Shown here piece by piece: positions 4,677-39,058 of a DNA stretch of 44,191 nt; positions within the stretch are counted from its first letter, which is position 1, and each line of letters begins with the position of its first letter. Source of the DNA: Bacteroidota bacterium (GTDB taxonomy: Bacteria > Bacteroidota > Bacteroidia > Bacteroidales > P3); assembly GCA_017860255.1 (NCBI GenBank), contig JAFNAR010000022.1, positions 1 through 44,191 of the forward strand, in the 5' to 3' direction. Made by a program: the position numbers and the translations under genes. A model generated the notes under the pieces. It was not told the origin of the DNA and ran no database searches. It saw only the letters and a list, made by a program, of their open reading frames with translations.

Positions 4677-7184
4677 ATGAGACGATTAATTTATTTATCT
4701 TTTTGTCTATTTACTATTCTTAATAGTCAAATTGCTTTTTCTCAAATTGAAATTCGTAAACCTTTTATGGTTGATTCAATTAATAATAAAGGAGAAAAAT
4801 TTAATATAAATAATCTTCTGCAAATTCCATCTTTGAAGGATTTAGAGCAAGAGAATTATTTTGAAACAATATTTGTTAACCAAACAACTAATATAGACTT
4901 GCCTAAGGGTAAATCAAATCTCATAAAGACATATATCTGTAAGATAAATACTAATTCTTATTCTAATTCTTCATTTAATTTATATTCAACAGACAAAGTT
5001 AAGATAGCTTTGGATGGAAAAAGTATAAAAGAAAGATTAGATACTAAAGATTCTTTGGGTGAAGGAAGTAAGATTTCTTTTGATTTAAAACTTGAACCAG
5101 GAGAATATACTCTTTCATTTACTTTTTTGATTTCAGATGAAAATAAAGAACATTCATTTCGTTTAGAAAAAGAAAAAGGCAACTTAAATATTGAAAATAA
5201 TGCTAAAAGTGGATTAACTCTTAAGCAAATGTTAACTGGAAAAAATATATACTCAAGTACTATTTCTCCAAGTGGGAATTATGTATTAGTAAAATATTAT
5301 GATGTTGATGAAAAAGGGAAAAGAAGCTATGGTTATACTATATTTAATGTAAAAGATAGTAAGGCTAAATTAGTTTTTCAAAATGAAGGCAACTCTTCAA
5401 TAAATTGGGTAGATGTAAAAGGTGGAATTGAAAAATGGAATGATGTATTATATTATATAGAAAATAAAGATGATAATAATAAATTAATTACTCAAACTGT
5501 TGATGGGATGAAAACAACTTTTTTGGAAAATCTTCCAGAGGGTAGCGTTTCCCTTTCATCTATAAATAATAACATTTTAATTATCTCCCAAACATCTAAA
5601 ATTGATAATTCTAAAGAAGATCTTACTCGATATTTAATGCCTGATGATAGGATTGAAGGATGGAGAAATAGAACAACTTTATCTTTATTTGATGTTAAAA
5701 CAAAAACATTACAACCACTAACCTATGGCTATCATTCTACATACTTGAATGATTATAACCCAAAAACTAATTCAATACTATTTTCTGTTTCTTATGATAA
5801 TATTACAGAAAGACCTTTTGATAAGAAATCTATCTATCAAATTAATCTTTCTTCTTTTAAAGTTGATACCATCATTAATCAAGATGCTTTTGTATCTTAT
5901 GCTAATTATATTCCAAATACAGATAAGATTGTTGTTTCTGGAAGTGGTGAAGCATTTAATTCAATTGGAAGTACTTTAAAAAAAGGAGTTATTCCTAATT
6001 CATATCATGGTTTGTTATTTATTTTAGATACAAAAACAAAAGAAGTTGAATGTATTACAAAAAACTTTAATCCATCTATAAGTGAATTTATTATTACAGA
6101 TAATGGAAAACTATTCTTTAAAGCAGAAAATAAGGATTCTATTTCTGTATTTCAATATGATTTCTCTAAGAAAGTTATAAATAAATTAGAACTTGGTTTA
6201 GATATTGTTTCTTCTTTTTCACTTGATTCAAAAGGTGAGAATATTTCTTTTCATGGTCAGAGATATAATGATTTTCCTATGGTTTTTGTATCTAAAAATA
6301 TTGAAAAAGGTATTTCTCCAATTGAAGTTTATAAGACAAAGAGTAAAGAAAATTTAGCACTTGGAGAGATGAGAGAATGGAATTTTGATTATAAAGGAAC
6401 TAAAATTGAAGGAAGATACTATTTACCTTATGATTTTGATTCTACAAAGAAATATCCAATGATTGTTTATTATTATGGAGGAACTTCTCCAACTGACAGA
6501 AGTTTTGAGATGCGTTATTCCGCATTTCTTTATACAGCTCAAGGTTATATTGTATATGTTTTGAATCCAAGTGGAACAACAGGATATGGTCAAGAATTTG
6601 CTGCTCGACACGTTAATGCTTGGGGAGAAAGAACTGCTGATGAAATAATTTTTGGTGTTAAGAAATTATGTAAGGAAAATTCATTTATTGATGCATCAAA
6701 AGTTGGTTGTATGGGAGCAAGTTATGGTGGTTTTATGACACAACTTCTTCAAACAAAAACTGATATTTTTGCTTGTGCAATTTCTCATGCAGGAATATCT
6801 GATATTACTTCATATTGGGGTGAAGGTTATTGGGGTTACTCTTATTCTTCTGGAGCAACTGCTTATTCTTATCCTTGGAATAGGAAAGATATATATGTTG
6901 AGAGAAGTCCTTTGTTTAATGCAAACAAAATCAAAACTCCTATCCTACTTCTTCATGGAGATTCTGATACTAATGTTCCTATTGGTGAGAGTATTCAAAT
7001 GTTCAATGCTTTAAAAATATTAGGAAAAGATGTTGAATTTATTTCAGTCAAAGGAGAAAACCATGGAATAATTGACTTCGAAAAAAGATTGAAATGGAAT
7101 AATACTATTTATGCATATTTTGCTAAATACCTTAAAGGAGATTCTTCTTGGTGGGAATCAATTTATCCTAATACTAAACTATAA
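4677..7184 (+). CDS. S9 family peptidase (prolyl oligopeptidase/DPP-IV type)
   Basis: An 835-residue secreted serine peptidase. An N-terminal signal peptide ends near residue 22 (AFSQ). A long beta-rich region (about 200-560) fits the propeller of S9 enzymes, and the alpha/beta-hydrolase domain occupies about 580-830. The catalytic triad is visible: Ser682 in GASYGGF, Asp764 in HGDSDTNVP and His796 in GENHG. An extra domain of about 180 residues precedes the propeller. Such enzymes release dipeptides or cut oligopeptides in the periplasm. It is the last gene of the run from 288, and its stop faces the stop of a minus-strand gene 34 bases away. No intrinsic terminator is obvious in that gap. 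Confidence 0.9.
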   Translation: MRRLIYLSFCLFTILNSQIAFSQIEIRKPFMVDSINNKGEKFNINNLLQIPSLKDLEQENYFETIFVNQTTNIDLPKGKSNLIKTYICKINTNSYSNSSFNLYSTDKVKIALDGKSIKERLDTKDSLGEGSKISFDLKLEPGEYTLSFTFLISDENKEHSFRLEKEKGNLNIENNAKSGLTLKQMLTGKNIYSSTISPSGNYVLVKYYDVDEKGKRSYGYTIFNVKDSKAKLVFQNEGNSSINWVDVKGGIEKWNDVLYYIENKDDNNKLITQTVDGMKTTFLENLPEGSVSLSSINNNILIISQTSKIDNSKEDLTRYLMPDDRIEGWRNRTTLSLFDVKTKTLQPLTYGYHSTYLNDYNPKTNSILFSVSYDNITERPFDKKSIYQINLSSFKVDTIINQDAFVSYANYIPNTDKIVVSGSGEAFNSIGSTLKKGVIPNSYHGLLFILDTKTKEVECITKNFNPSISEFIITDNGKLFFKAENKDSISVFQYDFSKKVINKLELGLDIVSSFSLDSKGENISFHGQRYNDFPMVFVSKNIEKGISPIEVYKTKSKENLALGEMREWNFDYKGTKIEGRYYLPYDFDSTKKYPMIVYYYGGTSPTDRSFEMRYSAFLYTAQGYIVYVLNPSGTTGYGQEFAARHVNAWGERTADEIIFGVKKLCKENSFIDASKVGCMGASYGGFMTQLLQTKTDIFACAISHAGISDITSYWGEGYWGYSYSSGATAYSYPWNRKDIYVERSPLFNANKIKTPILLLHGDSDTNVPIGESIQMFNALKILGKDVEFISVKGENHGIIDFEKRLKWNNTIYAYFAKYLKGDSSWWESIYPNTKL

Positions 7185-21813: not shown

Positions 21814-21831
21814 AGAAAAAGGAATAAATAT

Positions 21832-21878
21832 AGTGGGATTGCTTATCTACTTTGTCACTTTATAAAGCAAAGAAATCG
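21832..21878 (-). repeat. intergenic repeat R, copy 1 (inverted)
   Basis: Read on the minus strand, this is the same unit as copies 2-4: GATTTCTTTGCTTT, ..., GACAAAGTNGATAAGCAATC. It differs from the others mainly at TATAAAGT in place of GCAAAGC. It is followed on the plus strand by a second hairpin (CGGTTT at 21877-21882 with AAACCG at 21902-21907, and CTTGC/GCAAG inside). The stretch 21911-22020 holds nothing else that I can name. Confidence 0.7.
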
Positions 21879-22022
21879 GTTTACCGCTTGCACAGCAAGA
21901 AAAACCGCATTACAAAAAAGAAAATCATAATTATGCAAATGTAGAGATTATTGGGAAAATAGACTAATTTCAATAGTCTGTAATAGCTTGAAGAACAAAC
22001 AACTCTTTATATAAAAGTAGAA

Positions 22023-22123
22023 TAATGCCATTATAATCTTCATATAATGCCATTATAGTTTAAGTTTAATGGCATTATACCATTGGTTTAATGGCATTAT
22101 ACTGAGAATATAATGCCATTATA
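22023..22123. repeat. palindromic word cluster A (five copies of TAATGSCATTATA)
   Basis: TAATGCCATTATA occurs at 22023-22035, 22045-22057 and 22111-22123. The near complement TAATGGCATTATA occurs at 22067-22079 and 22089-22101. Each word is almost self-complementary (only the centre differs), and neighbours in opposite orientation can pair. Spacers of about 10 bases are unrelated to each other. It lies upstream of the aspartyl protease gene. Confidence 0.8.
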
Positions 22124-22125
22124 TT

Positions 22126-22214
22126 GAGATCTAAATAAGGTTTAAATTTTTCTTTTTGAGATTTTAGTATTTTAATTCTTTATCTATTCAGTTCTAAACT
22201 TAGTATTTTATTTC
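22126..22214 (+). repeat. tail repeat, copy 1 (follows cluster A)
   Basis: About 90 bases from CTAAATAAGG through TTCAGTTCTAAACTTAGTAT recur at 26472-26562 with roughly a dozen differences by eye. In both places the tail directly follows a cluster of palindromic words with the core AATGGCATT. It has no open frame. It is probably part of one compound element. Confidence 0.75.
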
Positions 22215-22224
22215 CGTTTTGAGG

Positions 22225-22265
22225 GATTTCTTTGCTTTGCAAAGCGACAAAGTCGATAAGTAATC
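22225..22265 (+). repeat. intergenic repeat R, copy 2
   Basis: GATTTCTTTGCTTTGCAAAG, then CGACAAAGTCGATAAGTAATC. It contains the palindrome CTTTGCAAAG. This copy lacks the GTGCG outer arm seen in copies 3 and 4. It ends about 40 bases before the aspartyl protease start. Confidence 0.75.
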
Positions 22266-22277
22266 AAAATTAATTTG

Positions 22278-22285
22278 TAAATTTG
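22278..22285 (+). promoter_or_regulatory. TAAATTTG promoter box of the aspartyl protease gene
   Basis: A perfect -7 element 20 bases before the ATG at 22305. No -33 element is visible at the usual distance; repeat R copy 2 occupies that place. Confidence 0.4.
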
Positions 22286-22304
22286 TCAGCAAATAAAGTA
22301 AATA

Positions 22305-23535: not shown

Positions 23536-23589
23536 TCGTGCGTGATTTATTTGCTTTGCAAAGCGACAAAGTCGATTAACAATCCCACA
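23536..23589 (+). repeat. intergenic repeat R, copy 3
   Basis: It starts TCGTGCGTGATTTATTTGC and continues through CTTTGCAAAGCGACAAAGTC to AATCCCACAT. The arms GTGCGTGATT and AATCCCACAT are partly complementary. It lies in the 92-base gap between two convergent stops, those of the aspartyl protease and the 79-residue ORF. Confidence 0.75.
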
Positions 23590-24340: not shown

Positions 24341-26014
24341 TTATTGTCGTTTTAAAAATTCAATATTATCTTCTAACTTATCACAATAAAAATCTTTAGG
24401 CCAGTCAAAATCGCCTGTAGAAGTAATATCAAGCCTTTTTAATATAGCAGATCTTTCATTTTCACCTTTTGATTCTACAAAATAAATAGCAACATCATCA
24501 TTTGAAATAGTTTCATCTGCTATTCTTCTTCTTAATCTTCTTAATAAGTATTCACTGTGAGTTTCAATCAATAATGACTTTCCTTCTTTAATAATTTCTA
24601 TAAATAAATCAGCTAATTCTGCTTGCATTTTAGGATGTAAATGAACTTCTGGTTGTTCTATAATAGTCAAAGTATTTTTTCTTGATAATAAACCTTGTAC
24701 TATAATAGGTAATACTTGTGAAATTCCAAACCCTACATCTGTAATGTCAAGTTTTAATTTATTTTGTGTTACACTTATATTATGAATAACATCTTTAATT
24801 TGAGAAACACTGACATCAAAACCAAATTTATTTAACCAAACATTAACGTTGTTCTTTAATTCTTCATTGTCAAGAAGTACTTCTGCTAGTTGATTACCAT
24901 CTATTGAATCTATTGAATTGTTAACTTTTGAGCTATCTAAAAGATAATATCTTTGAGGGTAAGCTCTTAAAGGACTAACATAATTAATATTGTTTTTATT
25001 AAAATCTTGTTTAATACACCAAACTGCTTCGGCAAAGATATAGTATATTGTTCTTAAAAATATAATTTGGTCTGAATTGGTTGAACTGAATTCATCAAAA
25101 TCATCTTCTGTTCCTAATTTATCTAGGTTTATACGACTTCCAAATTCGCTAGAATATTTTGTTAATATTGATTTGTCTAAAATATCACTATTCAAATAAT
25201 AATGTTTTTTATTCTGAGTATTTTTAAATGAATAGGAAAGAATATTACATGTATTATCACTTATAGTAATATCATTTACTTCTAGTTCATTTACTTCTAG
25301 TTCATTTGCTTCTTGATTATATTTAATACAATAACTTAATTTTGGATTGTCAAATGATTTTGCAAATATATTTTTTATTATTGTATATGCATCTTTTAAA
25401 GAAGAACCATCGATAATAATTTTATTATTTTCATCAATATCGATTTTTATTATTCGAAAAAATCTATAATTTAAAACATTCTCTTTTAAATATGCCTCTA
25501 TTTTATCATCAGAACTAGATATATTATTATTTATTTGGTTATTAAGATCTTTTATTTAATTTATTAGATCATAATAATCCGCGTTTATATTTCCAAACTT
25601 TTCTAATATATCAATCCTATTTTTATATGAATTTTTTTTGTTATTTCTATTATTTTCTAAGAATGAATTCACTTTATTTAATAAATAAAACATCTCACAT
25701 AATTCAGATTTAAATTTATTTAATAAAGTTTCAAGCTTAAAATCTTTAATTGCAAATTTTAACTCTATTTGAGTATCTTTATTTTTATTATGAAGAATAT
25801 TTTCAATTTCGCCTAATTTAACAAGATCACCATTAAGCATTAATGCTGATTTATACGACCCTTCATAATTTAATGTTTGTGTAATCATTAAAAGTAGTTG
25901 AATTAAACTACTTTTCCCAGAACTATTTGCTCCTAATAATATTGTTATAGGTTTAATTTCTAAATTTCCTTCCTCAAAGGCTTTATAATTTTTAAATTCA
26001 ATTTGTTTTATCAT
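24341..26014 (-). pseudogene. AAA ATPase, DUF3696 type, interrupted by one in-frame TAA
   Basis: From the ATG at 26014 to the stop at 24341 there is a single frame of 558 codons broken only by TAA at 25556-25558. The N-terminal part has the Walker A GANSSGKSS with Lys34. The C-terminal part has the Walker B/signature LTIIEQPEVHLHP, LIETHSEYLLRRLRRRI, and a DUF3696-like end with GDFDWPKDFY. I translated the segment 25196-25558 codon by codon and it reads as ordinary protein without other stops. A 15-base direct duplication encodes ELEVN twice in the linker. The two halves could be made separately (a TTG at 25195 begins the second), the stop could be real decay, or it could be a sequence error. 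Such ATPases often drive defence systems. It is the first gene of the operon. Confidence 0.75.
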
Positions 26015-26151: not shown

Positions 26152-26206
26152 TCGTGCGTGATTTCTTTGCTTTGCAAAGCGACAAAGTTGATAAGCAATC
26201 TCGCAC
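26152..26206 (+). repeat. intergenic repeat R, copy 4
   Basis: The most complete copy: TCGTGCGTGATTTCTTTGC, CTTTGCAAAGCGACAAAGTT, GATAAGCAATCTCGCAC. The arms GTGCGTGATT and AATCTCGCAC pair at nine of ten positions, so the unit folds as one hairpin. It lies upstream of the ATPase operon, in the gap 26015-26680. Confidence 0.75.
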
Positions 26207-26434
26207 TATGACTAATTTATGCAGTAAATCATAAATAGGAATATTAAAATAAAGTGTAAACCTATTTCAGGGATAAACAAATTACACAACTCTAAAAATA
26301 AATAATCAAAAGTCTTTTTTCATTCTAATTATTCATTAGTTACACCCAAATAATCTTTATATAAATCTATTTAAATGAGACTTCTATCTAATCAAAGCTT
26401 ATTTAGAAAAATTTAAACTTCTTTTCAATGTCAA

Positions 26435-26476
26435 AACAATGCGGTTGTTTTGACAAAACAATGGCATTGTTTTGAG
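26435..26476. repeat. palindromic word cluster B
   Basis: GTCAAAACAA and its complement TTGTTTTGAC form a perfect 10-bp stem with the loop TGCGG. They are followed directly by AAAACAATGGCATTGTTTT, a perfect palindrome around one G. The core AATGGCATT is shared with cluster A. The inverted sequence CTTATTTAGAA lies to the left (about 26399-26409) and TTCTAAATAAG to the right, so the cluster is flanked by an outer inverted repeat. Confidence 0.75.
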
Positions 26477-26562
26477 TTCTAAATAAGACTTAATTTTTTC
26501 TTTATTGGATTTTAGTACTTTAATCCTTTATCAATTCAGTTCTAAACTTAGTATTTTTATTT
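26472..26562 (+). repeat. tail repeat, copy 2 (follows cluster B)
   Basis: It matches 22126-22214: TTCTAAATAAG, then GGATTTTAGTACTTTAAT, then ATTCAGTTCTAAACTTAGTA. It has the same orientation and the same place relative to the word cluster as in copy 1. The rest of the gap up to 26650 is a T-rich run of CACTTTT/TAATTTT-like blocks without features. Confidence 0.75.
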
Positions 26563-38853: not shown

Positions 38854-38924
38854 TGTCCCGTGGTGTAATGGTAACACATATGATTTTGGTTCATACATTC
38901 CAAGTTCGAGCCTTGGCGGGATAA
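38854..38924 (+). tRNA. tRNA-Gln (anticodon UUG)
   Basis: A 71-base cloverleaf. The acceptor stem TGTCCCG pairs with CGGGATA (one G-U), the D arm holds GTAATGGTAAC, and the anticodon stem TATGA/TCATA encloses TTTTGGT with anticodon TTG. The T arm is CCAAG-TTCGAGC-CTTGG. The discriminator is A and CCA is not encoded. It reads CAA, and CAG by wobble. Confidence 0.93.
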
Positions 38925-38933
38925 CAAAGAAAT

Positions 38934-38979: not shown

Positions 38980-39050
38980 TGTCCTGTGGTGTAATGGTAA
39001 CACATATGATTCTGGTTCATTTATTCTGGGTTCGAATCCTAGCAGGATAA
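38980..39050 (+). tRNA. tRNA-Gln (anticodon CUG)
   Basis: A 71-base cloverleaf very similar to the first. The acceptor stem TGTCCTG pairs with CAGGATA, the anticodon loop TTCTGGT gives anticodon CTG, and the T arm is CTGGG-TTCGAAT-CCTAG. The discriminator is A. It reads CAG only. The pair probably arose by duplication and anticodon change. Confidence 0.93.
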
Positions 39051-39058
39051 CTAAGACA

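Follow-up and report, generated by a model that had tools for sequence, protein, structure and literature searches.

Clusters A and B of the window, the 44,191-nt stretch of DNA analysed here, are best read, with a probability of about 0.58, as members of a BIME-like compound repeat that lies between genes and is confined to one lineage. On this reading, a head cassette can be lost, inverted, copied or swapped in place, and the palindromic words act as double-stranded sites. Each copy would consist of a head of up to five such words, about two helical turns apart, set between two outward-facing tails. From the comparisons described below we infer both the function of the arrays and the mechanism by which heads are exchanged. 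The window is contig C27 of a Bacteroidales genome (the own genome, G000; 2.58 Mb in 72 contigs) and has a GC content of 28%. The relatives compared include G002, G006 and G007, which correspond to UBA5515, UBA4866 and UBA5371, respectively (100% aligned stretches).

Cluster A has a head of five class-A words (22021–22123, no strand) with a 22-nt period and 7-nt spacers. Its ortholog in the sister species UBA5515 also has five words, with two spacer differences. The right tail of head A (22126–22215, plus strand) is a divergent beta-like sequence that is 88% identical to 26474–26562 and 93% identical to its UBA5515 ortholog; its best score to another locus is 38, against a genomic maximum of 27. 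A possible left tail (21921–22020, minus strand) scores at best 27 against a genomic maximum of 26, and the left flank of head A is indistinguishable from background. Cluster B contains two class-B words (26433–26474, no strand; centres TGCGG and TGGCA). Both palindromes that a sequence-only reading of this DNA had described here are present: the first (26429–26455) has 11-bp arms and the 5-nt centre TGCGG, the second (26454–26474) has 10-bp arms and a 1-nt centre, and the word centres are 22 nt apart. The right tail of head B (26473–26562, plus strand), whose first bases overlap the last word, is 94% identical to its UBA5515 ortholog, and its proposed match to the tail of cluster A holds at 88% over 89–90 nt (22125/22126–22213). 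The left tail of head B (26330–26429, minus strand) is aligned in UBA5515 and scores 36 to other loci against a genomic maximum of 30. Excepting the left flank of A, the window tails are weak beta-like members, with scores of 30–38 against genomic maxima of 26–27.

The same reading had taken an outer inverted pair around head B as a sign of defined ends. The pair is real, with CTTATTTAGAA beginning at 26398 (26398–26408) and TTCTAAATAAG at 26477 (26477–26487; neither assigned a strand), but it does not delimit the element. Its left half lies inside the left tail rather than at the end of similarity, tail similarity passes outward beyond the pair and fades, by eye, at ∼80–100 nt, and at cluster A only the right partner is present. 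The reading had also named an outcome that would count against it, namely only two such tails, carrying simply duplicated heads. The first part is borne out, as tail 26473–26562 used as a genome query has only two close copies, followed at some distance by a 44-nt match (E 2e-4). The second is not, since one head is of class A and the other of class B.

Other features of the window were recorded alongside the clusters. A dispersed repeat, GATTTCTTTGCTTTGCAAAGCGACAAAGTCGATAAGYAATC, occurs at 21815–21877, 22225–22287, 23544–23588 and 26160–26209; it brackets cluster A, one copy is inverted, and UBA5515 has one more copy where cluster A lies. An AAA_15 (OLD/AbiEii-like) ATPase is matched in its C-terminal part by the ORF at 24341–25195 and in its N-terminal part by the ORF at 25556–26014, both on the minus strand; the gene therefore looks split. 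An Rfam search of the window returned no structured RNA at gathering scores except two tRNAs, a tandem tRNA-Gln pair (38854–38925 and 38980–39051) with anticodons TTG and CTG.

Two main classes of word make up the heads. Class A comprises TATAATGSCATTATA words, usually five per head, and class B comprises CAAAACAATG..TTGTTTTG words in which TGSCA and TGCGG alternate. The pattern AATGSCATT-N(4-20)-AATGSCATT matches 70 places in the own genome and its backwards control none; exactly 13 nt separate the cores in 69 of the 70 pairs (again 0 in the control). This figure is the unbiased measure of spacing, because the count of head lengths allowed steps of 22 or 44 nt only. Twenty-two class-A heads, some of which are two halves of one locus split by an insertion sequence (IS), contain 90 words, including 39 TATAATGCCATTATA and 32 TATAATGCCATTAAA in one reading orientation. 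Many words are not exact palindromes because arm and centre are coupled: T is the second arm base in 38/90 half-sites with centre G and in 9/90 with centre C. At the three loci where it was compared, the five-word B head has one and the same order of palindromic, TGCGG, palindromic, TGCGG and palindromic words. A third word class, CGAAATGSCATTTCG-like, forms four-word rows with symmetric spacing (21, 22, 21) in UBA5515, UBA4866 and UBA5371 (L052, around 6967–7040 of the reverse strand; L091; L172).

The arrays are restricted in distribution and very uneven within it. UBA5515 contains 91 class-A pairs, the own genome 69, UBA4866 28, G010 9 and UBA5371 4, and the other six genomes of the genus 0–2; two genomes of another genus have two pairs each, with different flanks. 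Class-B words are limited to the same five of the genus's 11 genomes; the remaining six lack them, and the control is 0 in all eleven. Among 393 genomes of the order, the class-A core was found in 10. Only the own genome stands out in this sample, because the nine others have one or two places each and the control matches in five genomes; an order-wide spread of the core was accordingly rejected. A wider contig scan for the core returned at least 112 stretches, many of them single chance matches in unrelated phyla, and from it only metagenome-assembled genomes (MAGs) with several rows were used. In two of these, UW_MP_BACTE7_1 and RUG12994, as many as five words with the same core stand in a row at a spacing of 21–22 nt, between flanks of another kind; the shared core was imposed by the search pattern, the row length was not. 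The five-word rows of UW_MP_BACTE7_1 (L036, L058, L062, L103, L107 and L109) are mostly spaced symmetrically (22, 21, 21, 22). In the open-licence literature, no description of these words was found among the string matches listed, as judged by titles.

Orthologous words are more alike than the DNA around them. Across ten comparisons of orthologs, which together give 50 word pairs and draw on two loci twice, identity is 97% for words, 86% for spacers and 87% for tails, though word conservation is overstated because loci and ortholog pairs were found via intact-word patterns. Change in the word core is rare: only 2/400 core positions (positions 4–7 and 9–12 of the word) differ, compared with 13% in tails. 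Of the 25 word mismatches, seven each fall at position 2, at the centre and at position 14, two fall at position 15, and one each falls at positions 6 and 7, these final two both in one word that now reads AACCGCATT. Such a pattern could point to a platform for a dimeric DNA-binding protein, in which the words are sites on one helix face, the arrays serve to organise the chromosome or to tune the genes nearby, and exchange is a by-product. The exact 22-nt phase, the arm–centre coupling and a near-invariant core, in which all but one word change only at the centre and at positions 2, 14 and 15, all suggest sequence-specific recognition; the five-word rows with this core but other flanks in other Bacteroidales MAGs also favour the platform. 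However, array numbers differ widely among species of one genus, gene orientation shows no preference, the reading has no candidate protein, and the search pattern itself dictated that the core be shared with other genera. We therefore hold the platform as a whole to be possible but tentative. The compound-repeat reading shares with it the idea that words are kept as double-stranded, sequence-specific sites and not as one long hairpin; among the functions weighed, a double-stranded binding role is the likeliest and folded RNA the least likely.

A folded transcript, acting as a terminator or RNA stabiliser, is improbable on several grounds. Both regions do fold better than shuffled sequences (z-scores of −3.89 and −4.23), but palindromes alone yield such scores. 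A permutation test on 24 distinct five-word heads shows spacers 2 and 3 to be less complementary to each other than expected (1.54 versus 2.72 of 7 when permuted) and spacers 1 and 4 to be no more complementary than permuted ones (4.25 versus 4.47); likewise, in 21 pairs of tails, the left and right tails of one head are less complementary than crossed tails. With neither covariation nor compensatory changes in these permutation tests (24 heads, 21 tail pairs), a whole-array hairpin was rejected. The arrays are intergenic and lie between tandem, convergent and divergent genes alike, which also argues against a transcribed hairpin. Long perfect palindromes are unstable, and this instability plausibly explains the mismatched central spacers.

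The tails face outward from the head and are built of degenerate 21-nt units. Both flanks show this periodicity, with values at lag 21 of 0.436 (right) and 0.427 (left) against a mean of 0.33 (sd 0.022). After removal of one duplicated stretch and of IS remnants, which left 47 of 64 flanks, 136 of 1081 own-genome flank pairs scored above the 99.9% level of window DNA, where 1.1 were expected. Of the 136 matching pairs, 122 run the same way with respect to the head, and 65, out of 522 A-to-B pairs, join an A head to a B head. By best score, 27 flanks fit a tail profile termed alpha and 17 a profile termed beta, with six flanks matching both. Both tails could be assigned for 12 heads, and every one of these pairs an alpha tail with a beta tail on the opposite side; in this set, five heads seeded the profiles and two are mutual orthologs.

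These results divide the proposal that a constant tail is attached to a variable head. As a single constant tail it fails, because other heads have other tails, mostly of alpha or beta type; it holds at single loci, where the head changes while the tail stays (the orthologs of C54 and C14). At C54, where both flanks are aligned, the own genome has three A words, G010 and UBA5515 five A words each, and UBA4866 four B words; the switched stretch takes in ∼30–40 nt of the inner tail. At C14, the own genome has five A words and G010 four B words beside a nearly identical left tail, a swap known from the left side alone because the G010 contig stops just past the head. Other loci have lost or altered units. 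The UBA5515 ortholog of cluster B (L206) has, within the same flanks, five B words and the window two, with exactly three units (66 nt) missing, and head B is what remains of an ancestral five-word row. Two A words of the own genome at C42a correspond to five words in UBA5515, again a difference of 66 nt, and four words at C61 correspond to five there. At C38, the second and third spacers are swapped in order in UBA5515, and one of them is changed. Cluster A of the window, C57, C42b and C52 are stable.

Differential loss from longer, mixed rows of A and B words could in principle account for all head differences. Unit losses are seen, and B-like words occur within or beside A rows (C54; UBA4866 L177). 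In particular, the C54 heads of G000 and G010 retain the B-like word AACCGCATT in 22-nt phase, and the C54 swap could therefore be mimicked by loss from a longer mixed row. Nevertheless, the longest perfect A row among the 22 own-genome heads is five words; at one locus shared by UBA4866 (L177) and UBA5515 (L067), all four spacers of the five-word head differ (50% spacer identity); and at C54 the 22-nt unit that runs from the centre of word 2 to that of word 3 is exactly inverted in G010 relative to UBA5515. We consider it unlikely that loss alone explains the heads.

Copying across loci gives the complementary picture, in which the head is the copied part and the tail the part that differs. 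A five-word B head is 92–94% identical over 113 nt at three loci (the UBA5515 ortholog of cluster B, C35 and C42a), while the tails are 71–78% identical. Random 90-mers have a mean of 75% (5–95% range 67–85), and the tails at the three loci match no better than random DNA. C35 and G010 C12 also have the left tail in common (95%) and are probably orthologs. Under the compound-repeat reading, the head would be a cassette renewed by non-reciprocal exchange, which may proceed by gene conversion or by template switching at palindromes. A more specific version, in which a dedicated word-reading recombination activity writes the five-word head, with its fixed class-B word order, into resident tails, would amount to a dispersed cassette swap without a known recombinase; we think this improbable. 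For most described families of palindromic repeats, the copies that have been compared come from a single genome. Here, loci followed across several species as orthologs show the head changing between tails that stay, including an exact one-unit inversion and a class switch, and the renewal of mosaic palindromes is therefore directly testable.

Heads are also a preferred neighbourhood of an insertion sequence. A repeated IS end occurs at 20 places in the own genome, 13 of them recent (100% identical) and seven diverged. Eight of the 13 recent left ends lie 2–25 nt from a word core (C15, C20, C57, C52, C69, C2, C26 and C22); roughly 30 heads are present, and DNA no more than 30 nt from one of them makes up ∼0.2% of the genome. 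A ninth recent end, at C35, starts ∼34 nt from a variant B word, the first of its head. By eye, those at C37 and C65 are in tail-like DNA, and C37 resembles the far side of C61; the recent ends at C3 and C5 have no words nearby. Six of the seven diverged remnants are within ∼165 nt of a head, including the old left-end remnant of the window (26251–26271, minus strand), which is ∼160 nt from head B and recurs at G002:C12:106810; the seventh, C34, has no head within the stretch examined. In G010, a 97% identical copy adjoins a B head. Its products are an integrase-core protein (PF00665, 4e-20) and a helix-turn-helix (HTH) protein just below the HTH_Tnp_1 cut-off (23.5 versus 24.1 bits). This layout, as predicted from the encoded proteins, is that of the IS3 family. 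Contigs C15 and C48, compared with an intact head in UBA4866, suggest a 3-nt target duplication (TAA). At contig ends of UBA5515 (L165 and L166), two A heads adjoin another repeated end, CCGTCCTGAATAAGG, which is perhaps that of a second IS with the same target.

The presence of a multi-copy IS in the genome invites a further explanation, that tail, head and tail form a miniature inverted-repeat transposable element (MITE) with an internal minisatellite, like BrickBuilt of P. gingivalis, moved by an IS transposase. The size, intergenic position, repeats between two different flanks and copy number of the arrays would all suit such an element. However, 16 alpha and 16 beta flanks, when aligned, show no terminal inverted repeat, sharp outer edge or common end, and their similarity fades at ∼80–100 nt. 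The IS inserts into heads and shares no ends with them, and at the sole candidate presence/absence site, a five-word B head at C42a without a counterpart in UBA5515, the edges are messy. A MITE origin is thus doubtful.

Taken with these results, the arrays look like a previously undescribed variant of the mosaic palindrome repeats of other bacteria. Like REP and BIME sequences, they are short intergenic palindromes in regular mosaic rows or clusters; they differ in having rows of up to five words, 22 nt apart, with degenerate 21-nt tails. The GTAG/CGTC tags given for REPs in the portions of PMC3733652 consulted are not seen by eye, as opposed to by systematic count, beside A or B words. A pairing of REP with a RAYT was rejected, as the Y1 transposase (PF01797) has no match in G000, G002 and G006, the three richest genomes (G010 was left out, and this profile could overlook a Y1 class of atypical sequence); within the genus, PF01797 matches occur in G004, G007 and G008. 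According to the sections of PMC1525189 consulted, REP palindromes are targets of IS elements, IS3-family members among them, and the heads described here are similarly targeted by an IS3-family element. Palindromes targeted by IS elements are thereby known also from a Bacteroidales repeat for which no REP transposase was detected. Within the Bacteroidales, the closest parallels come from Porphyromonas gingivalis, as described in the relevant parts of PMC4596501. BrickBuilt, a MITE with ∼20 intergenic copies, has short tandem repeats with a leader on one side and a tail on the other, much as the 22-nt rows here lie between different alpha and beta flanks. Its repeats, however, are 23-nt direct repeats in up to 22.8 copies, bounded by IS5-like terminal inverted repeats, and that account has it bisected by no autonomous element, whereas an IS3-family element lies in or beside the heads here. 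MITEPgRS likewise combines tandem repeats with flanks that are themselves repetitive; by its description in the same source, it is set apart from the present arrays by a 41-nt unit and IS5-type ends.
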